Positions 14,363 to 35,850 of a stretch of 42,617 nt of DNA are shown one piece after another (within the stretch, counting starts at the first letter, position 1; each line of letters starts with the position of its first letter). The notes under the pieces are model-generated. The model did not search any database. It saw nothing but the letters and a program-made list of their open reading frames with translations, and was not told the origin of the DNA. The position numbers and the translations under genes are program-made. The stretch covers positions 1 through 42,617 of IMG/VR virus record IMGVR_UViG_3300045116_000607, one strand, 5' to 3'. This stretch comes from a virus.

Positions 14363-15321
14363 ACGTAGGGTTGGGTGCCCTGATCCACGAGACGTGACCC
14401 CGCCGAGGTCAACCCCATCAATCCTACTCCTGCAGCCAGGGGGGCCGTGGCCAGGGCGCCACCGAGTCCCATGCGAAGCCAGGGGGTCCTCTTGGGGACC
14501 TGTGCCGCAGCTCCCGCCGCTGCCTCGGTCGCGGGAAGCCCGCTCGCCACGTTTTCGAGTGCGGCGTAGTCTTCGGGGCCCACAAGACGTCTGGGTGCAG
14601 CAGCCGGCGCAGCTGGCGCAACTGTGGGCGCTGCGGTTATCGGGGTGCTGGTTGCCGCGGGCGTGGCGGGCGCCACACTACGTTTTGCTGCCAACTGTCG
14701 GGCGAACGCAGCAGCTTCATCCTCGGTCAGCGAAGCAGCTCCGCTACGACTGTAGCTACCGCTTCCTCTTGCACGACTGCCCGCAGCTGCTGCTCCCTCA
14801 TACCGGGCAGCGTCCTGCGCCGACTGAATCGGACTCGGTGACGATCGAGGCATTGCGGGCGCCACACTACGTTTTGCTGCCAACTGTCGGGCGAACGCAG
14901 CAGCTTCATCCTCGGTCAGCGAAGCAGCTCCGCTGCGGCTGGCACGCGCTGGAGCTGCGGGAGCAGCGGAGGCACCCGCCGCTGGTGCAGTACGCGGCGG
15001 GGTGGGATTCCTGGGCAAAGACGGAGCTGGAGCTGCTGGTGCTACGGGACGTGTCGCGAGCACAGGACCTCGCGCCAGCGACGGAGCGGACATGGGCCGG
15101 GATGCTGCCGTCAGTCCCGGCTTCAGAACCTTGGGAGCCCGCGTGAGCGCCCGTCCTACAGTCCCGACCGTCTTCACCAACGGCGCCGCCATGGCCTCCT
15201 TCTCCATCCCATGAGCCAGCTCCTGTCCCATGAGGACACAGTCGGCGGCGCGGCGGCTCAGGGAGCCAAGCTTGATGAAGTGCTCTTGAGCCAAAACGGT
15301 GAAGAGCTCAGCATTGGTCAT
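14323..15321 (-). CDS. Ala/Pro-rich virion-associated protein with duplicated module
   Basis: 332 residues. It is very rich in Ala, Pro and Ser. The segment SGAASLTEDEAAAFARQLAA occurs twice, flanking IQSAQDAARYEGAAAAG. A close relative of the same unit (SGGASLTEEEAKTLAQQL with TAQDAAKYEGAAAAG) is present in the protein encoded at 29861-30817. The C-terminus has a hydrophobic glycine-rich segment (GLGGALATAPLAAGVGLMG). It is last in the structural operon, after the tube gene. A likely role is as an internal or tail-associated virion protein. No enzyme motif seen. Confidence 0.7.
   Translation of the reverse strand: MTNAELFTVLAQEHFIKLGSLSRRAADCVLMGQELAHGMEKEAMAAPLVKTVGTVGRALTRAPKVLKPGLTAASRPMSAPSLARGPVLATRPVAPAAPAPSLPRNPTPPRTAPAAGASAAPAAPARASRSGAASLTEDEAAAFARQLAAKRSVAPAMPRSSPSPIQSAQDAARYEGAAAAGSRARGSGSYSRSGAASLTEDEAAAFARQLAAKRSVAPATPAATSTPITAAPTVAPAAPAAAPRRLVGPEDYAALENVASGLPATEAAAGAAAQVPKRTPWLRMGLGGALATAPLAAGVGLMGLTSAGSRLVDQGTQPYVYGGGVPVGGSTF
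14666..14934 (-). repeat. 80-bp exact direct repeat (14666-14745 and 14855-14934)
   Basis: The two 80-bp copies are identical and 189 bp apart, keeping the reading frame. They encode the duplicated SLTEDEAAAFARQLAAKRS unit. Exact identity implies recent duplication or gene conversion. Confidence 0.95.
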
Positions 15322-15349
15322 GGGTGGACCTCGTCTACCAGAGTCCGGC

Positions 15350-16081
15350 TCAGGCCGCGTTCATCAGCGCTTCCGCCACCAACTCCATGCCCGTGTTCAG
15401 AGTCACGGCATGGACGTTGACCGGCTTCATACGCTCGTACTGGAGGCCGACGCTCTCCTGGACCACCATGCCCTGCGCGTCCGTCGCCCATTGATGAACC
15501 GGAACCGTGACCTGCTCGAAGTAGCAGGCGCCCAGCGTGTCCAGGTTCGAGTTCCGGACGTACATCAGGATGCCGATGGGCTGATTGAAGAGGTCACTGG
15601 CCAGGTTCAGGAACAGGTTCTCGTAGCCTGGGGGCACGATGACGTCGTGGGGGTTGGCCATGGCGTAGGAAGCCAGGTTCTCGAAGACGGCGGGCACTGT
15701 GATCGTGCCGCTTTCGTCCTTGTAGTAGGCGTAGAGCGCCCGAAGCAGTGAGATCCCGTCGTAGTAGATCCGGGCCAGGGAAAGCTGACCCGTGGCGCGG
15801 CCTGCTATCTGGTAGCTGCGTTCGCTCCCCAGCTCCCAGATCCGGACGAACTGCTTGTTCTGCTGCAGGCTCACGTTCTGGATGATGCCCAGAGGGTAGA
15901 CCAGGTCCGAGGACCCCCTGGACTCGCTGTCTCCGATAGCCGCATTCAGGAACGACGTGCTGAGGCGGGGCGGGCCCGCTGCCAACATCGTGTAGCCGCC
16001 GGCCACGTATCGCCCGTCGACCAGGCCGCGCTGCACATAGTGATTCAACGGATCCCAGGTATCGAAAGGTCCACCTGCCAT
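15350..16081 (-). CDS. Putative tail tube protein
   Basis: 243 residues. Lies two genes downstream of the sheath gene, where the tube gene is usually found. Beta-rich with segments such as LGIIQNVSLQQNKQFVRIWE, ATGQLSLARIYYDG and GACYFEQVTVPVHQW, which fit a tube-like barrel. The alternative is another tail-core protein. Start at ATG 16081. Confidence rests mainly on position and on the beta pattern. Confidence 0.6.
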   Translation of the reverse strand: MAGGPFDTWDPLNHYVQRGLVDGRYVAGGYTMLAAGPPRLSTSFLNAAIGDSESRGSSDLVYPLGIIQNVSLQQNKQFVRIWELGSERSYQIAGRATGQLSLARIYYDGISLLRALYAYYKDESGTITVPAVFENLASYAMANPHDVIVPPGYENLFLNLASDLFNQPIGILMYVRNSNLDTLGACYFEQVTVPVHQWATDAQGMVVQESVGLQYERMKPVNVHAVTLNTGMELVAEALMNAA

Positions 16082-16100
16082 GATCAGCCTCCAGTCTCCT

Positions 16101-16916
16101 TTACTCTACCACGTCTTTCTCGAGCTTGAAACGAAGCTCCTCATCTTTTCCACCAGTAAGCGGCGCGAGCAGGATTCCACCTCGTCGAGACAACCTCCTG
16201 CTCAGCGTCGGATCCATGATTTTCGAGTAGAGTCGTTGCACTATTGCCTGGCTGAAACGACTCTTGAACGGGGGCACGTAGAAAGAACCGCCAGAGATCG
16301 GGCGCCTGGTTGTATACAGGTCCACGTCCTTGGACGCGATCTCGTCGATGAGAGAACGCGCCTCATCTGCCGTGATCTTGTCCTGGGAGATGTTTCGTGC
16401 GGCATAGGACAGCGCCTTGTTGCCGAGGAACCCACCAACTTCCCGAAGCGCGAGTTGCCCCAGAGGATGCAGACCAGCCTTTCCTGCAACCATCGAAGCC
16501 AGGTCCATGAACGGTGCCAGAGCATAGGTTCCCGCCATGGCCGCGTACTGAGCCTGAGTATGTGGTGAGGTCTGCCCATGAGACTTGAGCGCTGCATGTC
16601 CCTTGCGGGATGCCTGAACCTCGTCGACCAGCTCAGGAATCGACGCCACTGCACTGAGAAGGGGGGCGACAGCACCAGGTGCCTGCGTATAGCCCAACGT
16701 TGCTCCGAGGCGTGTCAGTGCCGTGTAGGCTCGAATACCCCGTGCCGCAGCTGTACTTGGACCGACAAGCTTGGGGAGGATCTGCTCGGATCCCGGACCA
16801 TGGGCCTGGGCGTGGGCCGCTTCGTGGGCCACGAGCGCCGGCGAATAGATCGCAGCTTCATCCTTGGCGATCTTGGTGAGCTCATCGGCAAAGGCCGCTG
16901 TGACTACGAACTCCAT
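16101..16916 (-). CDS. Virion-operon protein with HExxH motif and FADELTKIA leader
   Basis: 271 residues. The N-terminus carries AAFADELTKIAK, a version of the leader shared by several structural proteins. Directly after it, SPALVAHEAAHAQAHG (H31, E32, H35) is a zinc-binding HExxH motif in a context like YugP-type neutral zinc metallopeptidases. Several hydrophobic stretches follow (about 60-150). It sits between the sheath and tube genes, an unusual place for a peptidase. It could be a virion-borne peptidase acting on cell envelope or tail proteins. The third zinc ligand is not certain. Confidence 0.6.
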   Translation of the reverse strand: MEFVVTAAFADELTKIAKDEAAIYSPALVAHEAAHAQAHGPGSEQILPKLVGPSTAAARGIRAYTALTRLGATLGYTQAPGAVAPLLSAVASIPELVDEVQASRKGHAALKSHGQTSPHTQAQYAAMAGTYALAPFMDLASMVAGKAGLHPLGQLALREVGGFLGNKALSYAARNISQDKITADEARSLIDEIASKDVDLYTTRRPISGGSFYVPPFKSRFSQAIVQRLYSKIMDPTLSRRLSRRGGILLAPLTGGKDEELRFKLEKDVVE

Positions 16917-16947
16917 CGATGAACCACGATCGCCCCTGTCGATGTGA

Positions 16948-20064: not shown

Positions 20065-20083
20065 CGTTCCACCTCATTCACGA

Positions 20084-20926
20084 TCAGGGTTGTTCCAACG
20101 CTCTCGACCCGATCACCAAGTCCACAGTGAACGGATCCATATCGATGGGGGTCTCGACCCGGGACTCACCTTCCTGCCAGTTCGGTCTCGCCCCTCTCTG
20201 TGGAAATTCTACAGCACTGCCATCCCCTTGCACATAGCTCGTACCTCGACCCCCCACAGCTCGTGTTGGAGTTTGTCGGTACGCCGGCGTCGGCGTGACG
20301 GTCATTTCCATTTCGATGCCCTGGAGCAGGTGCGTCATCTGCTCTGTGACCCGCACACCGTAGTGGAACGAGATCGGCGTGGCCAGGCTCACATTGATCA
20401 CCTCGGGCCAGGCAGCGCCCTGCACGAGCTGTCCTGGGTCCGAGGGAGGATTGATCTGGAATCGCTGGCCTACGTCGTGGAAGCCGCACCTCATCAAGAT
20501 CCGTCGTAGGGCCCAGGTATGGATCGCCACGAACCAGCCCAGGGTCAGAGCTTCGTACCTTTCCTTGGCCAGACAGTTCATGAAGAGGTAGCCCGTGCAC
20601 AGATCGACGTGGGTCCGAGTACCGGTGCTCATCTCCTCATGGAGAAGCTGATCCATGCCCAGACCCTGGAAACCGACCGTGGACAGGTTGGTCACGATGA
20701 CCGGCATCTTGTCCAGGACCTCGGCGGGAACGGGGTAGACCGAGGTGATCCGGAGCTCGGACGCCTCAGCGTCGGAATGATAGCGGAAAGAGCCGGACGG
20801 AGCCGACTCGAAGAGTCGTTGCAGGAACAGAATGATGAGCCGCTCCGCGTGCAGGATCGGATTGATGGACCAGCTGCTGATCGGAGTGCGAGGTCGGGTC
20901 GGAGCTTCTGTGATTTTTCCCGTCAT
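20084..20926 (-). CDS. Virion protein, possible tail completion or terminator
   Basis: 280 residues. Unknown, but it lies directly upstream of the sheath gene, where tail terminator or completion genes are common. It has helical and strand segments (ILHAERLIILFLQRLF; ELRITSVYPVPAEV) and a Pro/Thr/Arg-rich tail after residue 210. Start ATG 20926 overlaps the preceding stop as ATGA. Confidence 0.65.
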   Translation of the reverse strand: MTGKITEAPTRPRTPISSWSINPILHAERLIILFLQRLFESAPSGSFRYHSDAEASELRITSVYPVPAEVLDKMPVIVTNLSTVGFQGLGMDQLLHEEMSTGTRTHVDLCTGYLFMNCLAKERYEALTLGWFVAIHTWALRRILMRCGFHDVGQRFQINPPSDPGQLVQGAAWPEVINVSLATPISFHYGVRVTEQMTHLLQGIEMEMTVTPTPAYRQTPTRAVGGRGTSYVQGDGSAVEFPQRGARPNWQEGESRVETPIDMDPFTVDLVIGSRALEQP

Positions 20927-21288
20927 GAGCCTCGGTCCTTCGCACTCTGCTTCTCCTCGTGTTGTCGCTGTGCATCTTCCATGAGCTCCCGTCGCTTCTT
21001 GTACATCTCGTTAGCAAGGTAGCCCGAAGCCACGCCGGTAAGCGCGGGGAGGCCGTAAGCCAGCCCCTTGCTCACGATGGATCGGCGCGGACTCGGAAGG
21101 CGACGGTGAAGGAGGATCTTGGCTGCTCGTGCCGTACCATAACCGACCCCGGTTCCAAGCGCGGCCATGCCCGCCACGGCCAGGGCACGGCGCAGCGTAT
21201 CCTTGTTCATACCGACTTCGACCGGCTTCTTGTCATGAGCCATCTTGCAGAGCTCGTCGGAGAAGCCGGCCAGTACGATCTGGTTCAT
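20923..21288 (-). CDS. Small membrane-type virion protein with FSDELCKMA leader
   Basis: 121 residues. N-terminus MNQIVLAGFSDELCKMAH belongs to the FxDELxK[IM]A leader group. Two glycine-rich hydrophobic segments (ALAVAGMAALGTGVGYG; GLAYGLPALTGVASGY) end in a charged coiled tail (KKRRELMEDAQRQHEE). ATG 21288 is set by the ATGA overlap with the upstream gene and GGGGG upstream. The longer frame that extends to 21957 is only the shadow of the neighbour. A role as an internal or ejected virion protein is possible. Confidence 0.7.
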   Translation of the reverse strand: MNQIVLAGFSDELCKMAHDKKPVEVGMNKDTLRRALAVAGMAALGTGVGYGTARAAKILLHRRLPSPRRSIVSKGLAYGLPALTGVASGYLANEMYKKRRELMEDAQRQHEEKQSAKDRGS

Positions 21289-22166: not shown

Positions 22167-22197
22167 GTCACTCCTTCCTCAAGTTCGAACCTCCGGC

Positions 22198-23157
22198 TTA
22201 CACCTTGGACGTATGCCAGTCCTCGTAGGTCTTGAGCGTGCCCTGTTCTGCCGCCGTCTTCACCTGCTGCACGAAAGAAGGTTTTCGACCTGACCTGTGC
22301 ACCTGCCTCTGCAGCGGACGCCGCAGTGCATCCGCCGCTTCCTGCGCCATCCTCACCGCCTCCTCCGGCTTGAGTGCGGCGCCCGCCTTCTGGAACTCGC
22401 GCAGTGCCATGATCTCATCCGCCAGAGTTCCGGGCACGTTGTCGCCGGCAAGCTGGCGAAGCTGCCCCAGATCTCGCTCCAGACCTCGAAGTCGTTTCTG
22501 CGCCCCTTCCCTCTCTGACTGCTCCAGCCGGGAGCCGATGCCGAAGCCGCCGGTCCTTTTGGCGAGCTGATACCCGCCCAGCATACCTCCGGTACCACCC
22601 AGAACCGCTCCTGCAATGGGAGCGACAGCCCGAGCTCCGGGGAAGACGTAGCCGACTCCTTTACCGAGAAGTGCGCCGAGACCGGCTCCCGCAGCAGCAC
22701 CGCCAAGACCACCCAGAGCCTGGCCCATACCCTCGCCCCGAGCCCGACCCTCCTCAGCGGCCTCCTCCGGATCCAGCGGCCTTCGTGTCGGCTCGATCTG
22801 GTGATGGTAGAGGTGCTGGGAGGGCTCGAACTCCGAGGCCAGGTCCGGATCGTGTTCTCGAAGTCTCTGCATCAGGAGTGCTTGCTGCAACATGCGCGAG
22901 TCGAAGCCGGCCGGCTGGGCCACCTTGATCGAGGTAAAAACGACTCGGTCTATCGGCACCTCGACCTTACGCTCCTGAAGACCAACGACATCTTCGACGT
23001 GGGGCTTGGCGCCGGTCTTTTTTTCAGCCGGACCTCGAGCCTCGTCCAGCGACTTGCCCTCGGAGGTGGAGATACCGCGAAGTATGGAATCGAGTTGATC
23101 CGCGGCCGTCTTCGGTGTTCCAATCACGAACATGTCCAGGGCTTCAGCGGCGTTCAT
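22198..23157 (-). CDS. Virion protein with glycine-zipper segment and K-T-A sites
   Basis: 319 residues. N-terminal leader contains TPKTAADQL and the C-terminus VKTAAEQG. A central Ala/Gly-rich segment (about 140-195: GLGGAAAGAGLGALLGKG; PIAGAVLGGTGGMLGG) looks membrane-inserting. Coiled or helical regions follow. ATG 23157 is preferred over GTG 23163 because GGGGAAG lies at correct spacing. It is probably one of several internal proteins of the head or ejected with DNA; no enzyme motif is seen. Confidence 0.65.
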   Translation of the reverse strand: MNAAEALDMFVIGTPKTAADQLDSILRGISTSEGKSLDEARGPAEKKTGAKPHVEDVVGLQERKVEVPIDRVVFTSIKVAQPAGFDSRMLQQALLMQRLREHDPDLASEFEPSQHLYHHQIEPTRRPLDPEEAAEEGRARGEGMGQALGGLGGAAAGAGLGALLGKGVGYVFPGARAVAPIAGAVLGGTGGMLGGYQLAKRTGGFGIGSRLEQSEREGAQKRLRGLERDLGQLRQLAGDNVPGTLADEIMALREFQKAGAALKPEEAVRMAQEAADALRRPLQRQVHRSGRKPSFVQQVKTAAEQGTLKTYEDWHTSKV

Positions 23158-23159
23158 GG

Positions 23160-24380
23160 TCACTTCCCCTTCCTCAACGCTTTGAGTACAGCGCCGCCGA
23201 GCTCGAGCGTGGGAACACCGAGCACGGCACCAGCCAGAAGACCCTTCTTGGCACCACCGAGCACCGCGCCGGCTGGATGTTCTCTTCCGGCACGCTCCGT
23301 TCGCAACATGTGTTTGAGATCAGCGAGCCGTTCCTCTTCCTTGTAGGAAGGCTCGCGCTGGGCTCGCAGAGCTTGCTCCTGGATATCTCCGATGAGCTTG
23401 AGCTCTCTCGAATTCGGCACGTCCTTCCCGTAGCGCTTCTGATGAGCGATACGCCGTCCCAGCTCGATCCCGGCGCCAGCCGCCCCACCAGCTCCGATCA
23501 TGGCCAGATGGCCTTTCCAGCCCGCTTCCTTGCCCAGCAATGCTTCTTTGAGAGAGCCCTGCTTCACAGGAGCCCCGCCCTGCTGCTCCTGCTCCCGCTG
23601 CATCGCTTCTTCCGCTTGCCGCTTCTGCACAGCGGCACCCTGCTCCGCTCGTTCGGCCTGATTCAGCTCCTTCTGCACCTTCGACGTGGCGACGGGGGCT
23701 GCGGCCTGGGCCGGCTGTTGTTGTGGTGGCTGCGCCTGGGAGACCCCCTCCATCTGCGCCTGGGCGTCGGCCTGAAGCGCCTGAATCGTCGAAGCCTGCT
23801 GCGCTTCGATCTGCTGGCGTTCGGCCGGGGAGTACGCGGCGACCTGCTTGAGCTGCTGCGCAAGCTGATCTGCTGCTTGCATCAGCTCTTGCCGATGCTG
23901 CTGCTGGTTCATGACCTCGGCCATGGCCGAATCCTGAGCCTGGATCGCCTGCATTGTCATGGCCTGCCGTGCGGCCTCACTCTGCTGGAGCATGAGCTGG
24001 GTCTGCTGAACCTGCTGAGCCTGAACCTCGGCCTGCTGCTGTGCCATGGCCAGGGATGCTTCTGCCTCTTCGTTTCTGGCCTGGAGTTGTTGCATCGCTT
24101 CATACAGCGAGGCTCGCTCTGCTTCCAACTCCTGAAGCTCGAGGGCCCGAGCCATCTCCGGATCCTGGAGAGCGGCGATTTCGTCCGGAGCCAGCTCCAC
24201 ATCGCTCGGAACCTGCGCCATCTTGTGAAGAAGATGAGCCAGCCGCATCGTGGCCAGGCCTGCCGTTTTTCTCAGGCCACCCACGTCGGGCTGGGCCAGG
24301 GCGTGGAACTCGGTCATGAACCGAGCCGAGACGGTCCAGGGAAGGGACTCGCCCGTGACGAAGCTATCGAGTTTGGACAT
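23160..24380 (-). CDS. Gln/Ala-rich long coiled-coil virion protein
   Basis: 406 residues. Residues 75-260 are almost continuous coiled coil, very rich in Q, A, E and M (for example MAQQQAEVQAQQVQQTQ). The leader region has LRKTAGLAT and LHKMAQVPS, two K-x-A sites. A glycine-rich segment (MIGAGGAAGAGIELG) and a hydrophobic C-terminus follow. It could be a tape-measure or internal ejection protein, though it is short for the tape measure of a myovirus. The long plus-strand ORF opposite it is a mirror of its codon bias. Confidence 0.65.
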   Translation of the reverse strand: MSKLDSFVTGESLPWTVSARFMTEFHALAQPDVGGLRKTAGLATMRLAHLLHKMAQVPSDVELAPDEIAALQDPEMARALELQELEAERASLYEAMQQLQARNEEAEASLAMAQQQAEVQAQQVQQTQLMLQQSEAARQAMTMQAIQAQDSAMAEVMNQQQHRQELMQAADQLAQQLKQVAAYSPAERQQIEAQQASTIQALQADAQAQMEGVSQAQPPQQQPAQAAAPVATSKVQKELNQAERAEQGAAVQKRQAEEAMQREQEQQGGAPVKQGSLKEALLGKEAGWKGHLAMIGAGGAAGAGIELGRRIAHQKRYGKDVPNSRELKLIGDIQEQALRAQREPSYKEEERLADLKHMLRTERAGREHPAGAVLGGAKKGLLAGAVLGVPTLELGGAVLKALRKGK

Positions 24381-26368: not shown

Positions 26369-26404
26369 CTAGGCGCTACTCTAGCAGCCTACGTCACCTT
26401 GGGT

Positions 26405-27523
26405 CTAGTAGAAGTAGACCCGCGGGAAGTAGACCTCGTCCTCGACCCTGTTGTTCATCGCACCCAGGTCTTCCTCGTCGACCGGGATCACACTGGCCCG
26501 GATACCGTCATTGTTGAGCGTTGTCGCATCACCGCTGTACAGCTCCATCTTGCGAACCGAGGCCACGTTGATGATGGACATCGCGATGGTCTCCCAGCAC
26601 TGCCACGTGATCTCGTTGAAGTGCTTGTCGATGAAGAACTTGGTTGCGTTGAGCACGTAGAACCGGCCCAGGAACTCCTCGTCCGTGAAGCCGTACACGT
26701 TGCCCGGACGCAGGATGTCGGTCTTGATGGTCCGGACGTAGCCACGCCCGACCAACTTCTCGTAGGTGAAGCCGTCGATCGCGGTCTCGCTCTCGAGCTT
26801 GCTGCCGTAGTCCTCCACGGTCCACGTGTTGATCGAGTCGAAGTCGTACTCGGTCAGGAGGAGCTTGGTGCAGCGCAGCTTGTTCCCGTCGAGGAGCTGG
26901 TGCAGACGCACCACGTCGTCACGCTGGAACGGCCAGACCCTGGCATCGTTGTTCGTGTCGACCCGTGCCAGGATGCCCTTGCGCGCCGAGGACTCGACCA
27001 CGGTGCCTGCCGTGATCGTGGTCTCGTGGAGCGAGGTCACGACGCCGCCGTTGGCCTCTTGCTGCAACGCCTGGACGGCGGCCTCGCAGTGGACCAGGAA
27101 CTCGAGGTCCTCGACCTCCTGCACATCCTTGGCCGCGTTCTCCTCGACGACCTTCGTGATCTTCATGCGGTAGGCCTGGAGCTCCTCCTCATACGCCTCG
27201 AAGCGTTCCGAGGACACGGTGAGGAAGGGAATCTCCACCCTGGGCGCACGGATCAGACGAGCATCGGGCTGGCCGCGGAACGGCAGGACCATGGCCCTGC
27301 TCTCCGGTTCGAGCTGCTCGATGATGGTCAGCGTGTCCTGATGGACGCTGGGCTTGCACTCCTCCGGGGTCACGGGCTTGGGCGTGAGGATCTTCGAGAC
27401 GAAGCGCTCCTCCCGAAGATGGTCCCGGATGTACTCGCCGCCGTGTTGGGAGTGCTTGGACTTGCCCTCGGCTGTGTCGAGCTTGGCAAGGAAGTTCGCG
27501 TTGTAGAAACTGAAGTCGCTCAT
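26405..27523 (-). CDS. Major capsid protein (putative, HK97-type)
   Basis: 372 residues. Placed after the protease and small head genes and followed by a strong terminator, as expected for a high-level capsid gene. The sequence has the alpha/beta mix of HK97-fold proteins: a helical N-arm with KLDTAEGKSKHS, a long acidic helix (RFEAYEEELQAYRMKITKVV), and a C-terminal part with FYVLNATKFFIDKHFNEITW and VASVRKMELY. No decisive motif exists for this fold, so position is the main support. AAGGAGG precedes ATG 27523. Confidence 0.72.
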   Translation of the reverse strand: MSDFSFYNANFLAKLDTAEGKSKHSQHGGEYIRDHLREERFVSKILTPKPVTPEECKPSVHQDTLTIIEQLEPESRAMVLPFRGQPDARLIRAPRVEIPFLTVSSERFEAYEEELQAYRMKITKVVEENAAKDVQEVEDLEFLVHCEAAVQALQQEANGGVVTSLHETTITAGTVVESSARKGILARVDTNNDARVWPFQRDDVVRLHQLLDGNKLRCTKLLLTEYDFDSINTWTVEDYGSKLESETAIDGFTYEKLVGRGYVRTIKTDILRPGNVYGFTDEEFLGRFYVLNATKFFIDKHFNEITWQCWETIAMSIINVASVRKMELYSGDATTLNNDGIRASVIPVDEEDLGAMNNRVEDEVYFPRVYFY

Positions 27524-27541
27524 GTTGTCCTCCTTCCTTCC

Positions 27542-27997
27542 TCAGCTCGCCACGTACAGGAACTGGAGCCAGTCCCCGTTCGATGCCGCAGTTCGGATCA
27601 CGTAGCCGACAGTCACACCAGCCGCGTGAATCTTCAGCCCGCTCTTGGACAGCGCGTTCCAGGTGACCGTGGCCGCATCCAGCTGGTTTCCCAGCGCTGG
27701 CGGTGCAGCCGCGTCGAAGATCTTGGTCTCGCCAAGAAACGTGCCGCCCATGATCAGCGGAACCTTTCTGGCGCCCTGGACATCGGACCGTCCCTTCTCG
27801 CTGAACAGCACGTAGGGTCCGGGACGGACACCGGGGTTCGCTGCACGAGTGACCTTGTTGGCCGAGCTGATCGTGCACCACTCACCCATCTCCAGCGGAT
27901 TCGCGTTCTGGAAGTTGAGCAGGGTCAGGTCTGCCGGCTCATACCTCCGGATCAGCAATCCGATGGAGGGGCTCTTCAGTCGGAATGTCTGTTCCAT
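27542..27997 (-). CDS. Putative head decoration protein
   Basis: 151 residues, beta-rich (PYVLFSEKGRSDVQGAR; VPLIMGGTFLGETKIFDA; TVGYVIRTAASNGDWLQFLY). It ends 19 nt before the capsid gene. Small beta proteins next to the capsid gene are typically decoration (gpD-like) or minor head proteins. No specific family is identified. Confidence 0.6.
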   Translation of the reverse strand: MEQTFRLKSPSIGLLIRRYEPADLTLLNFQNANPLEMGEWCTISSANKVTRAANPGVRPGPYVLFSEKGRSDVQGARKVPLIMGGTFLGETKIFDAAAPPALGNQLDAATVTWNALSKSGLKIHAAGVTVGYVIRTAASNGDWLQFLYVAS

Positions 27998-28056
27998 TTT
28001 CTCTCACCCACTCCTGTTACAAAGAAACAGTTGGCTCCCTGGACCCGATCCGGGCG

Positions 28057-28428
28057 CTACTCACCGCTCATCACGAAGCTGTCGAAGTCCTGTTTGGCTC
28101 CGCCGGTGACCATGTCGCCCACCTTCCACGGTGAGCGCTGTGCCGTGCTGAGCTCGAGGGCTTGCTTGAACAGCTCGAGCTTGCCCTCTGCCGCCTTGCC
28201 CAGGAGGTAGACCTTGGTCTCCTCCAGGGTTCGACCCTGATCCAGGCCACGCTCGTGGACCAGACCGGCCAGCTTGCTCACCTCGTGGTTGAGCTCGTGC
28301 TGTGCCAGCTTGGCTCGGAGTTGCCTGTTCTCGGATCTCAGCGCGTCACGTTCCCCGGCCAGCTTCTCCAAGGCCTCGGCTCCGAGGCGCAACACTTGCT
28401 GAACTTCCACTCCGCTCAGCTTTTCCAT
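28057..28428 (-). CDS. Coiled-coil protein, possible capsid scaffold
   Basis: 123 residues. The N-terminal 60 form a leucine-rich coiled coil (LEKLAGERDALRSENRQLRA). Two K-L-A sites (EKLAGE, SKLAGL) are present. A small coiled-coil protein between protease and capsid genes fits a scaffold or core protein removed by the protease. That is inference from position and composition. Confidence 0.55.
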   Translation of the reverse strand: MEKLSGVEVQQVLRLGAEALEKLAGERDALRSENRQLRAKLAQHELNHEVSKLAGLVHERGLDQGRTLEETKVYLLGKAAEGKLELFKQALELSTAQRSPWKVGDMVTGGAKQDFDSFVMSGE

Positions 28429-28443
28429 CTCACGCCTCCTCCT

Positions 28444-29511
28444 CTACGCCTGGACCTGGTCCGTGCTTGGGGACGAAGTCGGCGAGGCGCCAGCCCGGCC
28501 CTCCTTCTTCATCCCGAGTCTCGATGCCACCGTGCAGGCCTGACAAGATTCGTTGGGCTTGGCCTTGTCACAGGTACAGCCCTGACTTGCCAGCTTCTGC
28601 AGGATCGATCTGGCCGCAGCGATCTTCGCTCCGGCCTCGTCGACCACACTGGCGCCCAGCGCGTTGTCCAACGTCTTGTCCGTTGACGCGGACATGGCGG
28701 GCTCATCGAGCACCTCCGCCAGCTGCTTCTTCGGTACTGCCATGGCTTCGGCCTTGGTGAGGTCGATCGCGGCCTCGTTCGTGGCCAAGGCTTTTTCCTG
28801 GCTCGTGACCTCGGCAGGACGCTTCACCTCGGGGGGCTGGTCCTCGGGGAAGCCGGTGCCTTTCACGTGAGGGGTCTTGATGTCACCGCCCTCGCCAGCG
28901 TCGTCGGCTGCACGCTTGAGCAGAGCTCCTGCGCGCATCATGCGCTCAACGATGCTGCCAGTCTTGGCCGTGCCCTGGAAATGCAGAGGGTTCGCCGGCA
29001 TGGCCTTGTCCGCATCGGTTCTCGGACTGGCGGCCGCGGCGAGGGGATTGGCGCCGGCCTCCATCTTCTCCGACGGACCTGGTGTCCTGGCCTGCCCCAG
29101 CAGATCCTGAGGCATGGTCTCCTCTGTGGGAAGACTCAACGGAATCGTGTTCGGCCCGTGACCCGGACCGGCGTCCGATCCCGCCTCGGTCGCGGACTTG
29201 ATACGTCCCGGAGTGAACCGGACTTCGTGCAGATGATCTGCAGTGTAGCGCAGGGCGGCGGCGAGCTTGGTGATGCGAGCTGAGCTGGTCTTCTCCTGCT
29301 CCTGGCTCTGCTCCTCCTTCGCCTCCTCCTTCGCCTTCTTCTCGGCGCACTCTGCACAGAGCTCCTTGCTCGAGACTGCGGGTCGACCACACTCCTTGCA
29401 CGCCTCGCCGGCTTGCGCTTCGGCTTCCTCGGCGAGCTTGGACATGCCATCGCCGGCGCTGAGCGCAGCCTGGATCATGTCCTGGATCGTGGGGGGCTGG
29501 TAGTTCTTCAT
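28444..29511 (-). CDS. Virion-operon protein with two Cys-rich zinc-like clusters
   Basis: 355 residues. CKECGRPAVSSKELCAECAE near residue 38 has the CxxC-x(n)-CxxC layout of a zinc ribbon. A second cluster near 320 reads CTCDKAKPNESCQAC. Between them the sequence is low-complexity, helical and charged, with DMIQAALSAGDGMSKLAEE at the start (a K-L-A site) and ITKLAAALRYTADHLHEV. ATG 29511 is preferred over the GTG three bases earlier because GAGGAGG has proper spacing. Function unknown; probably an internal head protein. Confidence 0.65.
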   Translation of the reverse strand: MKNYQPPTIQDMIQAALSAGDGMSKLAEEAEAQAGEACKECGRPAVSSKELCAECAEKKAKEEAKEEQSQEQEKTSSARITKLAAALRYTADHLHEVRFTPGRIKSATEAGSDAGPGHGPNTIPLSLPTEETMPQDLLGQARTPGPSEKMEAGANPLAAAASPRTDADKAMPANPLHFQGTAKTGSIVERMMRAGALLKRAADDAGEGGDIKTPHVKGTGFPEDQPPEVKRPAEVTSQEKALATNEAAIDLTKAEAMAVPKKQLAEVLDEPAMSASTDKTLDNALGASVVDEAGAKIAAARSILQKLASQGCTCDKAKPNESCQACTVASRLGMKKEGRAGASPTSSPSTDQVQA

Positions 29512-29542
29512 CACATCCTCCTCGAGCCGTGCCGGGGCCTGG

Positions 29543-29809
29543 TCATATGCCTACACCAGGCGGTGATACCGTTTCCTGCTCCTGGGTCAGAGCCGAGGTC
29601 GGGCGCGGAGTCCCGGTATGCACCGTAGTGTAGTTCGTTTTCTGGAGCGTGGTTCCCTGAAGCGCCTTCTGCACCACACGCCGCGGCGTGATCGGCGCGG
29701 CCTGGGCCGGATTCTGTCCACCGAGGAGCCCGCCCGGCACCGGAGGTGCCGTGATCGCCGGAGTGCTGACCCCGGCGATCTTTCCAAGCTCGTCAGTGAA
29801 GGCTCTCAT
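29543..29809 (-). CDS. Small Pro/Thr-rich virion protein with FTDELGKIA leader
   Basis: 88 residues. The N-terminus MRAFTDELGKIAGVS is a clear member of the recurring FxDELxK[IM]A leader. The rest is a Pro/Gly/Thr-rich, probably unfolded chain. ATG 29809 is chosen over 29824 because TGGAG lies 9 nt upstream and this places the leader at the very start, as in the other members. Confidence 0.65.
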   Translation of the reverse strand: MRAFTDELGKIAGVSTPAITAPPVPGGLLGGQNPAQAAPITPRRVVQKALQGTTLQKTNYTTVHTGTPRPTSALTQEQETVSPPGVGI

Positions 29810-29860
29810 GTGCACCAGCTCCATCGTTCGTCGACCCAGGTCGCGTCACGCCCCTGCCCG

Positions 29861-30817
29861 CTACTCCACGGGGTAGCCGAGCTCGGCGAGATACTGCAGC
29901 GCCGCGGCGTCGACCTGGGCCTCGAAGTCCTCTGCCACCTTCTCCTGCCCCGCGGGGGGAGGAGCCAAGATGTTGCCCTGGTCATCGATCCAGCCATGCG
30001 CGGCCAGCTTCTCCACGGCCCTGCGCTGGATGAGCTGATCCACGGCAGAGCTCTTCTTCTCGCGGAGCGCCTGGACGCCCCTGTAGCCGCCGTAGCCGAC
30101 ACCACCGAGAGCGCCGGCGGCACCGAGACCCGCTGCGATCAGCTTCGCCTTGCCCTTGGCACCGGAGCCCCAGGTCTTGGCCACGTCTTGCCCTGCGCCA
30201 CGTGCTCTCGCCTTGACCGTACCGGGCAGACGCTCCGTGCCCGTGCGCAGCTTGAACAGCGCCTCGTCGAGCTTCGTCGCCTGGCCGTGACCGCCGGCAT
30301 GACGGCCAGCCGCCGCAGCCCCTTCGTACTTGGCTGCGTCTTGCGCCGTCTGGAGTGGCTTGGCAGTGGAATGCTGGGCGGACAGTTGCTGGGCCAGCGT
30401 CTTGGCCTCCTCCTCGGTGAGTGACGCTCCTCCGCTGCGTGAAACCACCGCCTTCCTTCGAGCCCCTGCCTTCTCCATGGCGATGAGCTCTCGCTCCTGC
30501 TCGAAGGCATGCGCCATGATGCGCCCGCCGAAGTCGTACTCGGCGAACTTCTCGATGGCCTCCTGATCGGCCGGGGCCTCCTGCTCCGGAGCACCGCCGC
30601 CGTAAACCTCGGCTGCCGTCTTCAGGATCTCCTCGTCCGAATACTGGGACAGATCGATGCCACGGGCGGCGGCGTCGTCGGCCAGCAGGGCGAGCTGCGC
30701 CATCTTCTCGATCTCCTCCTCGGTGGCCGGGGACGGAGCCGGTTCCGGTGTCGCGGGCTGTTCCGCGGCGGTCTTGGTCGTTCCTGTTCCGTAGAGCTCA
30801 CTCAGAAACTGGTTCAT
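29861..30817 (-). CDS. Virion protein with six K-x-A sites and shared SLTEEEA module
   Basis: 318 residues. Leader MNQFLSELYGTGTTKTAAEQ. Further K-x-A tripeptides appear as EKMAQLA, LKTAAEV, EKFAEYD, EKLAAHG and EKVAEDF, spaced through the protein. The module SGGASLTEEEAKTLAQQL plus TAQDAAKYEGAAAAG is shared with the protein encoded at 14323-15321. A glycine-rich hydrophobic segment (LIAAGLGAAGALGGVGYGG) lies in the C-terminal third. It follows the prohead protease gene and could be a main substrate of that protease (inference). ATG 30817 has GAGGGAG upstream. Confidence 0.7.
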   Translation of the reverse strand: MNQFLSELYGTGTTKTAAEQPATPEPAPSPATEEEIEKMAQLALLADDAAARGIDLSQYSDEEILKTAAEVYGGGAPEQEAPADQEAIEKFAEYDFGGRIMAHAFEQERELIAMEKAGARRKAVVSRSGGASLTEEEAKTLAQQLSAQHSTAKPLQTAQDAAKYEGAAAAGRHAGGHGQATKLDEALFKLRTGTERLPGTVKARARGAGQDVAKTWGSGAKGKAKLIAAGLGAAGALGGVGYGGYRGVQALREKKSSAVDQLIQRRAVEKLAAHGWIDDQGNILAPPPAGQEKVAEDFEAQVDAAALQYLAELGYPVE

Positions 30818-30888
30818 GGTCTCCCTCTTTTCCTCTCGTTTTACGGACACCACTCACGCGGTGGGCGGTCCTCGTAACCACGTAGCTA

Positions 30889-33800
30889 CTACGCCACCCC
30901 GCCAGCCTGTGCAAGGGCTCCTGCCATTTTGAGCCCGTGCAGATCACAGTGCTGATCCACGTACTCCGAGACCGGTTCCTCCAGATAAGCTCGGTTCAGG
31001 TAAGTGGTCGGCATCGTCCTGAGTATTGATTCAAGCACGTCCCCACCCCTCTTGGCAAGACCTGACCGGAACAGCTCCTGACCGAGCACGTGATCGAGAA
31101 GCTGTGGCTCTTGCCTCAACGCATCTCGAGCGAGACCGGCTACCTTGTAGATCAAGCCGCGCCGATAACCTCGATACAGCGCGGCGATCTTGCGAAGCAG
31201 AGCGTTGTCTCCGGCTTCCTTGAGCACGTCGGACTTCGACACGGGGGCCTGCTTTTCCGGCGCTGCCTTTGCCATGATCACAACAGTGCGACGGTGCAAT
31301 GGCGGAGCAAAAGCGCTGCGCCCCATGATCAGAGGGAGCAACATGCGAAGGAAATCGGGTCGGGTCTGATCCGGGAGGGGGAAAGGAAGCTCGTCCGATC
31401 CCGGCTCGAATCCGATTCCGGATCGGTGCAGGCTGTCGGCGAGCCCGGGACGGCCCATGGAGATGATCATGATGCGCTGGAACTCGCCAGGGCGAAGGAC
31501 CACGCCGGCACCAGCCGCGCTGGCCAGAGCACCAGGCACATCCTTGGCCATGGCATCTTGCACATCGAGCGGGATTTCGGGCTCGGAAGCCTCGATGGCG
31601 GGCAGCCTGTCCTCGAAGTTGGACTTGACCGCCTTCTCGATCTCCGCATCCTTGTCCAGGGCGACTTTGGGCTCGGACCCCTGTTTGGCCCTCTGCGCCA
31701 GCTCGTCGCGAACCTGACGAAGATAGGCATCGACCCTCCTCTCCGTGACTGGATCGATGTCGCTGAGAGTGAGATCTTCAATGCCTTGAGCCTGCTTTGG
31801 CATGGGCTGTTCCTCGTCCCGAGTCCAGACCTCGTACACGTGACTTGATGGAATGATTCGACCCTCGGCACAGGACGCGCACTTGACGTGGCCCGACCGG
31901 ATCGGGCATTCCCCGGCCAACTTGCCCAGAATGAAGCTAGTCTTGTCCGCGCCGATGTAGACCACGCTGATATCGAAGAAGCGCGGATGGAGATTGATCA
32001 TCTTGGCCTTGCGACCATCGGGGTAGATCCGACCGAGCTGGGTTCGGAGATGCTCGCAGTAGTCTCGAACCGTGGGGCTCAGGCCTTGGATCGGGGACCG
32101 TCGATGCTCAGCTAGATCCAGTCGAGGATCTCCAGTGATACGAGACCAGTCAGCACAATGACCACAATTATGTACTACAAAGCCTCCAGCAACATAGCTC
32201 TCGTCCTCCTCGACCGCGAGATTGCACGTCTCTGTAGAACCAGTGAGGCTCCGTACTGATCGAACTGGAGTGCAGACGTAGTTTTTCCAGAAAAAAAGAC
32301 GGGCACCGCCCCGGGACACCACAGCCTTCACCTTTAGACTGAATTGGTTGAGAGGGCTTAATGATGCTGAGGGAAGGCTTATCCAATAGGCCAACGCACC
32401 AGGAGCGTAGCCCGAACGTGTTCGCTGTCTTCTGAAAGTTGCGGGGATACCAAGAGAAAGTGCAAGATCGCGCACTTCCCAAGCCAGCGATTCGTTAGCC
32501 GTAACATAGCGAACGCCGCATCTCGATCTATTGTTAGAAGGCGTGTCCTCCGAGCCGTCGGTATCGATCAAGCCCCCTAATAGAAAGAATCTGGCCTCCG
32601 GCTCCCAATCCATCCAATCGCTCGGTAAATGCTTACCCCGGCTGCCCTCGCCACAAAGTTCCACTACAGACGCGGCCAGATGCTGGTCATAGAGACGGAT
32701 TGTGACGGCATTCTTGTCCCCCTCTTTGTATACGCGCGGAAGATTTTTTCTACTACACCGGCGCAGCAGATCTACTAGATCATCAATATGTTCCTTCTCG
32801 TCAGTACCTGCACTGAACTGCACACCTTGAAGTACGTACTCTCCATCTCTTTTTCGACCCCGACGTTGCCTAATCGGACACCCGTCACCCAAATACATCC
32901 CCATCAATCGCGCATGCAGCAACGAGAACTTAGTCGTACCTGCTCCCACAGGAGTCAAAAGATAGGCTCCAGCGACAACCTCAGATGCGGAGACCCACTG
33001 AGGTTTCAGGTCAAGTTGTTTCCCACAAAAAGAGCAAAGGCCCTCTCTGTCCACTCGATGTCTTCGCCGTAACCCGTTCGCTGACCCTTGACAGCCACGC
33101 ACCGACTTTTCACACAGCATGTAGATAGGATGATTCGGCGTGCAGCGAATAGGATCAGGAACTCCCACAGGCTGAATCTCGATGATTCTGTCCGCAGTTC
33201 TGCGAAAGGTCTGGGTTACAGGACGCCAGCGATCCTTGTGTGTCTGTACCAAGTCGCCCACGACGACCTCTTGGATTCGGACAGGTCCTCGCTTTGTACG
33301 GATGAGAGTCGAGGGGTCTAGGCACACGTCATAGGGTACGCGACATCCCATGCTCACACTTGGGAACTCGCCGTTGTCGATCCTGGTCAGGATGCTCGTG
33401 GTGTCCTGGGCCTGGGCACGCATGCGGTCGAAAGCCACGACCAGGAGCACGCGCTTCATGTGCTCGTCCCAGAGCACATAGGCCACAGATCCGAAGGCCC
33501 GGTTCGGATCCTGGTTCCTGTGGTGGGCAAAGGCATGAGCGTTGTAGAAAGTAGGGAAACCCCACTCCCAGCCCTTGCCGACGCTGACCTGCTGCGGATA
33601 GCTCAGCGTGTCCCATCCCAGCGGCGCGTGGATCAGGGACGGCTTGCCGATGCCGTGAGGCATGACCTCCGGAAAGTCGTCGGCGTTGCTGTTGTCGCCC
33701 CAGTACTCACCCGCTCCCATCGCGCTGATCAGGGCGTAGAGCAGGTTGTCGTTCCGCTCCATCCCCTTCATCACGTGCATGATCCGTTCGAGCTGGGGTG

Positions 33801-33918
33801 CGGACGCGGTCTCGGCCGCCGTCTTCAGGAGATGGGCGTTGTTGTAACCGGGGTGGAGCAGGTGAAGATGCTCACCCCTCGAATCCTGAGTCGGGAACTG
33901 GCACTGCTTGATGATCAT
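30889..33918 (-). CDS. Prohead-protease-like protein interrupted by an intein
   Basis: 1009-residue precursor: N-extein 198, intein 386, C-extein 425. The N-extein has the order of a head maturation protease: a strand with FPTFYNAHAFAHH (H129, H132 or H133 as candidate catalytic His), GSVAYVLWD, then GEFPSVSMGCRVPYDV, where S187 or S189 may be the catalytic Ser. The spliced product joins VPYDV to CGHCADWSR. The C-extein has a Cys pair region (CPIRSGHVKCASCAEG), a region with KQAQGIEDLT, and K-x-A sites (KIAALYRG, YKVAGLAR). The leader has LLKTAAETA. It would cleave scaffold and head proteins during maturation. The assignment to the S78/U9-type group is by motif reading and position; the fold is not proved. 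Confidence 0.68.
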   Translation of the reverse strand: MIIKQCQFPTQDSRGEHLHLLHPGYNNAHLLKTAAETASAPQLERIMHVMKGMERNDNLLYALISAMGAGEYWGDNSNADDFPEVMPHGIGKPSLIHAPLGWDTLSYPQQVSVGKGWEWGFPTFYNAHAFAHHRNQDPNRAFGSVAYVLWDEHMKRVLLVVAFDRMRAQAQDTTSILTRIDNGEFPSVSMGCRVPYDVCLDPSTLIRTKRGPVRIQEVVVGDLVQTHKDRWRPVTQTFRRTADRIIEIQPVGVPDPIRCTPNHPIYMLCEKSVRGCQGSANGLRRRHRVDREGLCSFCGKQLDLKPQWVSASEVVAGAYLLTPVGAGTTKFSLLHARLMGMYLGDGCPIRQRRGRKRDGEYVLQGVQFSAGTDEKEHIDDLVDLLRRCSRKNLPRVYKEGDKNAVTIRLYDQHLAASVVELCGEGSRGKHLPSDWMDWEPEARFFLLGGLIDTDGSEDTPSNNRSRCGVRYVTANESLAWEVRDLALSLGIPATFRRQRTRSGYAPGALAYWISLPSASLSPLNQFSLKVKAVVSRGGARLFFWKNYVCTPVRSVRSLTGSTETCNLAVEEDESYVAGGFVVHNCGHCADWSRITGDPRLDLAEHRRSPIQGLSPTVRDYCEHLRTQLGRIYPDGRKAKMINLHPRFFDISVVYIGADKTSFILGKLAGECPIRSGHVKCASCAEGRIIPSSHVYEVWTRDEEQPMPKQAQGIEDLTLSDIDPVTERRVDAYLRQVRDELAQRAKQGSEPKVALDKDAEIEKAVKSNFEDRLPAIEASEPEIPLDVQDAMAKDVPGALASAAGAGVVLRPGEFQRIMIISMGRPGLADSLHRSGIGFEPGSDELPFPLPDQTRPDFLRMLLPLIMGRSAFAPPLHRRTVVIMAKAAPEKQAPVSKSDVLKEAGDNALLRKIAALYRGYRRGLIYKVAGLARDALRQEPQLLDHVLGQELFRSGLAKRGGDVLESILRTMPTTYLNRAYLEEPVSEYVDQHCDLHGLKMAGALAQAGGVA
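32167..33324 (-). other. Intein with LAGLIDADG endonuclease in the prohead-protease gene
   Basis: 386 residues from C (codon 33324-33322) to the last N (codon 32169-32167), with C as the +1 residue. Block A CLDPSTLIRTKRGPVRI, block B CTPNHPIYML (the TxxH histidine), block F CNLAVEEDESYVAGG and block G FVVHN are all present. The two endonuclease motifs LMGMYLGDG and FLLGGLIDTDG keep their acidic residues, so it should splice and cut. A CxxC pair occurs near the first third (CSFC). Lines I counted inside are about 50-57% GC against about 63% next to it, suggesting later arrival. Confidence 0.93.
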
Positions 33919-34598
33919 GGGTGTGCAGGAAAGGGAAGTCCCAGCTGCTGGCGATCCTGCAGAAGCTGCTTGAACTCGTCCTCTGTCTTCAGCTGATCGA
34001 GCAGGCGTCGAGTCGCTCCCGCCATGTACGCCTCCTGCTCACGCGCTTCTCTTGCACCCTGCAATCGCACCTTGTCCGCCTCGGTTCTTCCGCGAGATAG
34101 TGTTTCCTCATACTTTCTCTGCTCCAGATCAGCCGCCGCGAAAGCATCGGGCTGCCCCGCAGAATGCATCAGGCTCGACGTGATCTGGGCCACAGGCATC
34201 TGTTCGAGGAGGCCGGGCTGCCGCATGCTTCTCTCGGCACCGGCGATATCGGAGATGGTTCGTGGGTCGATGTAGTCGTCGTGGTACATCGTCCTCCGTA
34301 CCCAGGAGCTGGCCACGACCGGATCCTGCGCCATGGTCGGTGATGCATTGTGGAGCGAGTTGTACATGGCCCGGACCTTGGCCGCAGGCTCCTTGGCCAG
34401 CTCGGGGTTGTAGGCGAGCATGCTCTTGAAGCCACGTTCTCGACCGATGTGACGTTTGATCGCACCGTACGCTTCGGACGCGCCGAGCATGGCAAGGGGC
34501 ACTCCGACACCCACAGCGAGCTCACGTCCGAATCCAGACCAGTCCGCAGCTTCTTTCTGCAAACGCTCCTCAGCGAGGAATTCTTGTACGGGATTCAT
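33915..34598 (-). CDS. Virion-operon protein, 227 residues
   Basis: Unknown function. It starts MNPVQEFLAEERLQKEAADW, a variant of the leader (KEA in place of KIA), followed by a short hydrophobic segment (ELAVGVGVPLAMLGAS). The C-terminal half is a charged helix or coiled coil (EETLSRGRTEADKVRLQGAR). ATG 34598 overlaps the preceding stop as ATGA, and its own stop overlaps the protease start the same way. Confidence 0.7.
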   Translation of the reverse strand: MNPVQEFLAEERLQKEAADWSGFGRELAVGVGVPLAMLGASEAYGAIKRHIGRERGFKSMLAYNPELAKEPAAKVRAMYNSLHNASPTMAQDPVVASSWVRRTMYHDDYIDPRTISDIAGAERSMRQPGLLEQMPVAQITSSLMHSAGQPDAFAAADLEQRKYEETLSRGRTEADKVRLQGAREAREQEAYMAGATRRLLDQLKTEDEFKQLLQDRQQLGLPFPAHP

Positions 34599-34993
34599 CA
34601 GTACGCCATCCCTGTTCGTGGGTCCCAGATCGCCCTGGTCTGGGCCAGCCTGGATCGAAACTGTTGCTTCTTGGCATCGAGATAAGCGCCGACCGGATCC
34701 CCCGCAGCTTCGTTGGCCAGGCCGGCGGCGATCAGAGGCGGCGCGGTCAGCGCCATGCCGCCAGCGATGACGCCGGGAACGCCGCCACCCGCTGCCCGAT
34801 ACGCACCCTTGCCCGCGCCCATCGCAGCACCATGAGCCCCGCGGATCAGCCCCTGTGCGCCTTGCAGCAACTCGGCACCAGCCGCACGCACTGCCGACGC
34901 AGTCTTGATGACGCCCAGATCCTGGTCGATGAGAAGGCGCACTGCATCTCCGGTCAGGAACAGGGCATCGTAGTCTGCCATGGACGCGCTCAT
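34598..34993 (-). CDS. Ala/Gly-rich virion-operon protein, 131 residues
   Basis: Unknown function. The leader contains GVIKTASAV (a K-T-A site) and is followed by glycine-rich hydrophobic sequence (AAGGGVPGVIAGGMAL) that may insert in a membrane. AAGGAGG precedes ATG 34993. Its ends overlap both neighbours by 4 nt or less, typical of a coupled structural operon. Confidence 0.68.
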   Translation of the reverse strand: MSASMADYDALFLTGDAVRLLIDQDLGVIKTASAVRAAGAELLQGAQGLIRGAHGAAMGAGKGAYRAAGGGVPGVIAGGMALTAPPLIAAGLANEAAGDPVGAYLDAKKQQFRSRLAQTRAIWDPRTGMAY

Positions 34994-35850
34994 CCTTGTG
35001 CCTCCTTGCCATTGATCAGGGTCTGGATCTGCTTCCGTCCCTGAGCCAGCTTCTCCTTGGCCGCGAGATAGGTGTAGTAGTCTCGCGCAGTCGACGCGAA
35101 CTTCTCGAAGCCGGTGCAGACGGCGTGGGTTCGGTCCAGCACGTAGACCGCACCAGGCTCACGCCGTTCTTCGACCGCGGGCACGTCCCGTACTGCATCC
35201 CGGATCAACCCCAGCGCCAGCTTGGTCAGCGCCGGTGTCGGGGAGAGCTCATGGAACGCCTGAGCCACGCTGGCAGGGTTGACCCCGTCGAGCATGGCAC
35301 GTCGTGCGGCCACGCACATGTCTTCGCCGGCGTGGACGTAGGCTGCGAACTTCGAGCGGAGCTCGGCCTCGACAACGCCCTCCGCAGTCTTGGCCCGAGA
35401 CCAGAGTTCGTAGAGCTCGCGGTTCGGGGTTCGCGGAGGATAGTCGGCGTGCGAGCCTGCCGAGGCACGCTTCTCCATCGTGAGCGCTTCCTCGTCCAGG
35501 AGCACAGCTCCCGGCACGAATCGCTCGACGTCATGCAGGAGTCGGGCTGTCTTCATGATAGCCACTCCTTCCTCTTCCTCCGACGATGCTGGCTTTGCCA
35601 GGAGCTCCAGGACCCGCTTCGGATCGGCGGGTCCATCCGGAAAGTCCACGATCCTGATCGCACCAGCCATCTTCGGAAACGCTGCGCCGAAGGCAGCGTT
35701 GTTGGCGAACTCTACTACTCGCTGTACCTGCTCCATGCCCAGATCCTTGCCTTGAAGCATCGAGGCCGCGATCTCGGAGAGCGAGCCCCGGCCTGCTCCA
35801 TACAGATCTGCCACGGCCTGTCCAATCTTCTTCAGCTCCTTCGGGTCCAT
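34990..35850 (-). CDS. First gene of the virion operon, 286 residues, unknown
   Basis: Mostly helical. It contains AIMKTARLL, RAKTAEGVV and GFEKFASTARD, again K-[TF]-A sites, and a Cys pair C182 and C249 approx. It is too small to be a portal and shows no portal motif. ATG 35850 is given; an in-frame GTG at 35862 is possible, and neither has a strong ribosome site. The gene lies divergently from the HTH gene at 35927, which could control it. Confidence 0.65.
   Translation of the reverse strand: MDPKELKKIGQAVADLYGAGRGSLSEIAASMLQGKDLGMEQVQRVVEFANNAAFGAAFPKMAGAIRIVDFPDGPADPKRVLELLAKPASSEEEEGVAIMKTARLLHDVERFVPGAVLLDEEALTMEKRASAGSHADYPPRTPNRELYELWSRAKTAEGVVEAELRSKFAAYVHAGEDMCVAARRAMLDGVNPASVAQAFHELSPTPALTKLALGLIRDAVRDVPAVEERREPGAVYVLDRTHAVCTGFEKFASTARDYYTYLAAKEKLAQGRKQIQTLINGKEAQG

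Follow-up and report, generated by a model that had tools for sequence, protein, structure and literature searches.

The viral contig held as IMG/VR record IMGVR_UViG_3300045116_000607, 42,617 bases long and analysed here over its whole length as the window, carries two recurring peptide elements in the proteins of its virion operon: the tripeptide K-[TILMVF]-A and an N-terminal leader of the form FxDELxKIA. Both recurrences, first noticed in a reading made from the sequence alone (the sequence-only reading), are real. We consider it likely that the leader acts as a capsid-targeting sequence and that the hydrophobic-x-K-x-A element is a site for the phage's own maturation protease, which would cut after Ala. 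According to this interpretation, the protease encoded at 30889-33918 would recognise [LIMFV]-x-K-[TVLI]-A followed by Ser or Ala, most likely cutting after the Ala of the motif. Within the prohead it would first free its own catalytic domain via flanking sites and, once self-released, would cut neighbouring core/scaffold-like proteins at their several sites, while FxDELxKIA would serve as a capsid-targeting leader of about 17 residues at the N-terminus of other proteins. The cutting, the exact scissile bond and the delivery of leader-bearing proteins into the head are what we infer from the enrichment, positions and conservation of the motif, from the spread of the leader and its co-occurrence with the protease, and from a modelled protease fold with sites at its domain boundaries.

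The window is probably a fragment, the record itself being a 42.6 kb contig. Its contractile-tail virion operon occupies the minus strand from 14323 to 35862 and encodes a prohead protease with an intein, core/scaffold-like proteins, the major capsid protein, the sheath and the tube; a large terminase, also with an intein, is encoded in the window as well. Relatives were drawn from IMG/VR, with the cultured Salmonella phage Arash, Vibrio phage D69 and Bacillus phage G as distant ones. Genes were called with a simple caller of our own, and the start codon of any one small gene is therefore approximate.

Enrichment of K-[TILMVF]-A in the virion operon

Counting against shuffles, split by operon as the sequence-only reading had proposed, revealed 35 K-[TILMVF]-A tripeptides in the virion operon versus 11.5±3.3 in within-protein shuffles (maximum 23 among 500), and 6 versus 6.7 expected in the rest of the window. 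The densest proteins are the following, together with the protease (six tripeptides):

34990..35862, minus strand: core-like protein encoded upstream of the protease, seven K-[TILMVF]-A (0.86 in shuffles)
29861..30817, minus strand: core/scaffold-like protein, six K-[TILMVF]-A (0.99 in shuffles), the first with its K at residue 15
28444..29511, minus strand: core/scaffold-like protein, four K-[TILMVF]-A
28057..28428, minus strand: small core/scaffold-like protein, three K-L-A

No tripeptide of this kind occurs in the major capsid protein of the window or in two tail proteins:

16948-20064, virion operon: sheath, no K-[TILMVF]-A
15350-16081, virion operon: tube, no K-[TILMVF]-A

Every peptide listed in the sequence-only reading was recovered on the minus strand at the gene named, including the six in the product of the gene starting at 30817, and its statement that sheath and tube lack the tripeptide holds. 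Its list of head proteins was nonetheless incomplete, having overlooked both the richest protein (34990-35862) and that at 28057-28428. Tripeptide and leader are, in addition, distinct elements, in that the leader ends in K-x-A while most K-x-A sites lie inside core proteins. In five window proteins (genes 16101, 20923, 29543, 29861 and 33915) the K of K-x-A falls exactly at residue 15.

The pattern had been picked after the window was seen, and it was therefore retested in relatives. In the window and each of four related contigs, K[TILMVF]A headed the ranking of 90 X-[TILMVF]-Y combinations, with z = 7.8, 7.6, 5.3, 9.1 and 5.8, and neither the reversed A[TILMVF]K nor the arginine form R[TILMVF]A was enriched in the same five phages. 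These controls bear on the notion that the pattern merely reflects the composition or helix periodicity of Lys/Ala-rich proteins. The proteins concerned are indeed rich in Ala, Lys and Glu; the controls by within-protein shuffling, by reversal of the motif and by Arg in place of Lys all came out negative, however, such that composition, helix periodicity and Arg equivalents are ruled out and this explanation retains practically no probability.

The head maturation protease and the sites at its domain edges

The sequence-only reading had assigned the product of gene 30889 as a prohead protease, and profile (PHROGs) and structure comparisons of homologues confirm a protein with that fold, whose activity is predicted. 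The relevant features are:

30889..33918, minus strand: prohead (head maturation) protease with C-terminal scaffold-like extension, 1009 residues including an intein
33817..33825, minus strand: K-T-A at residues 32-34, preceding the catalytic domain; all 35 homologues have this K32 and A34
31915..31923, minus strand: K-L-A at residues 666-668, at the C-terminal edge of the catalytic domain as placed from homologue positions and the model of homologue L001
32167..33324, minus strand: intein between residues 198 and 585, with Hint_2 and LAGLIDADG_3 Pfam matches

The family comprises 328 related stretches in IMG/VR. When compared with family profiles, 17 of 35 homologues matched phrog_18299, annotated 'head maturation protease' (best 6.9e-10), and the window protease itself gave intein-type or unrelated matches only. 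A model of the catalytic domain of a close homologue (mean predicted local distance difference test score, pLDDT, 91.6) matched predicted viral prohead proteases in BFVD with probability 1.00, and a PDB sequence search with the protease profile returned no match. A fold search with the full-length model had given matches that were meaningless because of disorder, and was redone with the catalytic domain alone. In the alignment of 35 homologues K32, A34, H133 and S189 are all invariant, the latter two being the predicted catalytic His and Ser, and the window protease has these conserved residues at positions 133 and 189.

The placement of the motif on this protein is highly regular. Firstly, 52 of 54 non-redundant members have hydrophobic-x-K-x-A on the N-terminal side of the protease domain; Thr is preferred as the residue separating K from A, and Ala, Ser or Gly follows. 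Secondly, a C-terminal K-x-A lies within 22 residues of the core in 42 of the 54, the other 12 having it mostly slightly further on. In the full-length model of L001 the fold spans residues 38 to 282, with disorder before it (1-37) and beyond 282; the two K-x-A sites thus bracket the protease domain, the disorder starting directly after the C-terminal site. Placement at both domain edges would, on these models, be as in a self-processing protease. The gene adjoins the core/scaffold and capsid genes, and the order protease, 29861, 29543, 28444, 28057, 27542, capsid is kept in relatives.

The boundaries of the intein were set from its C-start and HN|C end, and it is inserted at a conserved Cys that closely follows the region of the catalytic Ser. 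The L001 homologue is free of it; the protease genes of several relatives are similarly long, which suggests the same intein insertion. A second intein is found in the large terminase (38664-41753).

A fuller motif across related loci

The fuller motif is [LIMFV]-x-K-[TVLI]-A-[S/A], and the pattern counted, [LIMFVY]-x-K-[TVILMAS]-A-[ASGE], was derived from the protease. Over 51 non-redundant loci (1,171 proteins) it occurs 785 times versus 82 in shuffles, its reversed form giving 89 versus 85; each of the 51 loci exceeds all 40 of its shuffles as well as its own reversed-motif count. Matches concentrate in six families, namely the protease, 34990 (family 1; 115 versus 5.1), 29861 (family 5; 103 versus 7.3), 28057 (family 6; 58 versus 2.7), 28444 (family 12; 85 versus 4.4) and a 567-residue family that has no member in the window. 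The members of one family being homologous, their counts lack independence. Terminase, capsid and connector/tail families of the 51 loci are at background. Outside the six families 199 matches were counted versus 52, nearly half of them in the first 45 residues.

In four of the five core families, roughly half of the sites, or more, occupy alignment columns used by fewer than a quarter of members; because many sites lie in such non-conserved columns, sites come and go and yet are retained. Moreover, all six unrelated families share the same preferences: Leu, Met or Phe at P5, often Glu at P4, Thr, Leu, Val or Ile at P2, and Ser or Ala at P1'. A P1' Ser preference has also been described for the prohead protease of phage SPN3US (PMC10052503). 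The suggestion in the sequence-only reading that K-x-A may be the cleavage site of the 30889 protease is thus supported, as far as sequences and models can speak to it, by domain-edge placement, by common P5-P1' preferences and by concentration in protease and core proteins.

The FxDELxKIA leader

Three window proteins carry the leader:

16101..16916, minus strand: putative capsid cargo protein, 271 residues, leader MEFVVTAAFADELTKIA, matching the leader pattern with K at residue 15
16866..16916, minus strand: its 17-residue leader, ending in KIA
20923..21288, minus strand: putative capsid cargo protein, 121 residues, leader MNQIVLAGFSDELCKMA
21238..21288, minus strand: its 17-residue leader, ending in KMA
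29543..29824, minus strand: small core-region protein (family 18), 93 residues, leader MELVHMRAFTDELGKIA, conserved in relatives
29774..29824, minus strand: its 17-residue leader, ending in KIA (12 residues with a start at 29809)

In IMG/VR, FxDELxKIA gave at least 131 matches versus 22 for the swapped control FxEDLxKIA and, among the matches listed, an ATG lies within 20 codons upstream in 95 of 131 versus 6 of 22 controls. A relaxed pattern collected 247 open reading frames (206 distinct), in which the offset of the leader from the N-terminus shows a peak and the parts downstream of the leader fall into 130 groups without detectable similarity; in the three window carriers the leader is 17 residues long. 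Among 69 diverse carriers the leader D, E and K are invariant, as the pattern required, while mean column identity overall is 6%. The end of the leader, L-x-K-I-A, fits the logo of the protease boundary sites. Recognisable carriers include an SNF2-type helicase, acetyltransferases and glyoxalase-like, MazG-like and thymidylate-kinase-like proteins, most carriers being of unknown function.

Two further explanations for this spread can be weighed here. One holds that the leader spread through recent duplication of DNA, without any function common to its carriers, as might be thought of a 168-kb relative (G002) that has the leader on several adjacent small genes. This contig encodes about 12 leader proteins, most with MIDFSAFxDE[LMF]xKIA and K at residue 13. 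Across pairs, however, their leader codons differ by 80 synonymous versus 22 non-synonymous changes, and the next 120 nt are 29% identical, which is random identity. Because the codons differ mostly synonymously and the downstream DNA is so dissimilar, the leader peptide is under selection and was not recently copied as DNA, leaving duplication very improbable. The other accepts the motif as a protease site and takes the leader for an ordinary propeptide, one that for example keeps cargo enzymes inactive or soluble, with no part in head targeting. Head proteins whose propeptides serve other purposes have been described (PMC10052503), yet a leader of near-constant length on 130 dissimilar downstream groups is hard to explain as enzyme-specific inhibition, and this reading is regarded as improbable, if less so than duplication.

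Two leader proteins (L167:2094-2699 and one in L095) have AGWHGT/GWHGS followed by Gly-rich stretches and no family match; by eye they are reminiscent of ADP-ribosyltransferases, which would parallel T4 Alt.

Co-occurrence of leader and protease, and cultured relatives

The protease is encoded in 38 of 45 leader contigs (84-210 kb) versus none of five in a small control set. Among the seven leader contigs without it, three have the pattern at an internal position (L065, L068 and L109) and four are at most 106 kb long. The sequence-only reading had offered a packaging signal as its second guess; a fixed-length N-terminal FxDELxKIA on unrelated proteins, co-occurring with the protease, argues for a role of this kind.

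Protease homologues were found in the cultured Bacillus phage G (gp19), Salmonella phage Arash (gp222) and Vibrio phage D69, all with K-x-A on both sides of the domain. Genome-wide, the fuller motif numbers 31 versus 11.2 in Arash and 29 versus 10.4 in D69, clustered around the protease gene; the core proteins with such sites are encoded at 145213-146136, 148209-148976 and 149652-150170 in Arash and at 153120-154049 and 156012-156821 in D69. The loose K[TILMVF]A is not enriched genome-wide in either, and Arash, D69 and the examined stretch of phage G showed no FxDELxKIA leader. The gp100 of Mycobacterium cluster C is a distant homologue with K-T-A-G after the domain and little motif elsewhere. 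An isolate assembly of Desulfovibrio sp. An276 (L269) encodes a homologue with the same boundary sites and contains a relative of the head module, making this strain a possible cultured host or prophage setting. The Arash, D69 and Desulfovibrio relatives make the cleavage half of the proposal directly testable. No paper on phage Arash was found in the open-access literature, and the searched text of the phage G tail paper contains no processing data.

The major capsid protein and the case for docking

26405..27523, minus strand: major capsid protein, phrog_2522 major head protein, matching phage G gp27 and PDB 6wkk

Several observations weigh against protease sites and a targeting leader. The capsid protein is usually the main substrate of such a protease, and that of the window has no motif, reading K-H-S at the N-terminal position at which K-[VI]-A occurs in three relatives; in these relatives, in turn, no hydrophobic residue stands at P5. 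Among solved structures in the PDB the best fold match of the catalytic domain, T4 gp21, is weak (E = 0.22). At least one motif site (L001 residue 665) lies inside a confidently predicted helix, the P1' position of the leaders is only weakly constrained, and one query of a cultured-phage collection did not find the leader.

Cleavage of the capsid protein at the K-[VI]-A near residue 25 of the relatives was considered and is unsupported: at this position the window and its closest relative read K-H-[SA], and a hydrophobic residue at P5 is lacking. The entry 6wkk was likewise dropped as evidence on N-terminal cutting, its listed sequence being nearly full length and phage G having no motif at this position. 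As the window capsid protein offers no site, the protease may leave it uncut or cut it differently.

Some of these points would suit a motif that is never cut and is only a docking or cargo-loading peptide, binding one shared partner, for instance the scaffold, the protease or the inside of the capsid. The weakly constrained P1' of the leaders and the presence of some sites within predicted helices accord with such a peptide, as does the leader itself, likely an amphipathic helix in which F, L and I line the same side; the sites of core family 5, like the leader, have acidic residues before the hydrophobic position. Invariance at both edges of the protease domain is, by comparison, typical of a cleavage site and unexpected for docking alone, and the P1' Ser/Ala preference in the core families and the protease is typical of a cleavage site too. 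Docking alone is consequently held to be unlikely, though it is the most serious of the competing explanations.

Comparison with known systems

The cleavage-and-targeting interpretation has parallels among well-studied viruses. The T-even internal proteins form a diverse set with a targeting sequence as their sole common feature (PMC3012670). In T4 (IPI-III, Alt, gp21), as here, a short leader is all that diverse internal proteins have in common, and maturation protease and core proteins are encoded upstream of the capsid gene (PMC3012670, PMC5694885). T4-type sites, however, end in Glu ([LI]-x-E or [AS]-x-E), whereas the sites predicted here are hydrophobic-x-K-x-Ala; the recurrent motif is of another type, no dedicated x-E search having been made. 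The leader here is FxDELxKIA, and the protease differs from that of T4 by a Cys/His insert and a long C-terminal extension.

With proteases of the phiKZ/SPN3US gp245 type the predicted system would have in common that many head proteins are cut at a sequence motif, that one propeptide can hold several sites, that the protease cleaves its own C-terminus and that Ser is preferred at P1' (PMC5694885, PMC10052503). Their sites, unlike those proposed here, are A/S-x-E, and their capsid protein and portal are cut after long propeptides; the present system would have K-x-A, a short common leader and no site in the window capsid protein. The herpesvirus assemblin cleaves between Ala and Ser. As is predicted here, assemblin (pUL26-type) is an N-terminal protease that is self-released from a fused C-terminal scaffold-like part (PMC4498786). 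In contrast to assemblin, an extra N-terminal site is present here and one motif would serve many separate cargo proteins. Finally, the DarB protein of phage P1, a large internal protein, has a capsid localisation signal that can bring a foreign protein into the capsid (PMC9024508); that signal is described for one protein, whereas the leader reported here is common to many.

On balance, and with rather more reserve than for the mechanism itself, we lean towards a broader claim: that FxDELxKIA is a general ticket to the capsid in a lineage of uncultured large phages, that the protein cargo of their heads can be read from sequence, and that a Lys-x-Ala head protease, previously undescribed, is involved. 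The leader strings tried were not found in the open-access literature. If the claim is true, the head cargo delivered to the host includes a helicase, acetyltransferases, a MazG-like protein and many unknowns, some of which probably serve host takeover or disarming, and a nine-residue pattern would reveal the protein cargo, most of it of unknown function, of many phages that have never been grown. The prohead protease would have a specificity distinct from the Glu-type sites of T4 and the phiKZ relatives, and the leader could perhaps serve to bring foreign proteins into phage heads.

Other features of the window

Further motif-bearing proteins of the virion operon are:

34598..34993, minus strand: small virion-operon protein, K-T-A at residues 30-32
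33915..34598, minus strand: virion-operon protein MNPVQEFLAEERLQKEA, K-E-A with K at residue 15 (family 3; fuller motif 18 versus 3.2)
23160..24380, minus strand: virion-operon protein, KTA at residue 38 and KMA at residue 53
22198..23163, minus strand: virion-operon protein, three K-[TV]-A, the first near the N-terminus

A module SRSGAASLTEDEAAAFARQLAAKRSV...AQDAARYEGAAAAG is repeated in the protein encoded at 14323-15321 and present in a single copy in the core protein at 29861-30817. Between the terminase and core genes, a plus-strand gene at 36763-37788 encodes a coiled-coil-like protein with internal repeats (LEPRIAGIETAVRDVEPRITAAIAAAETAA), and two adjoining plus-strand genes at 37881-38643 have near-identical Cys-rich starts (MCTCPN-WCDPSSDCWGCPY) followed by polyproline. 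The product of 6735-7322 appears, by eye, to be NADAR/YbiA-like (RGEHEFLSNFY...AEQAFQLAKA).

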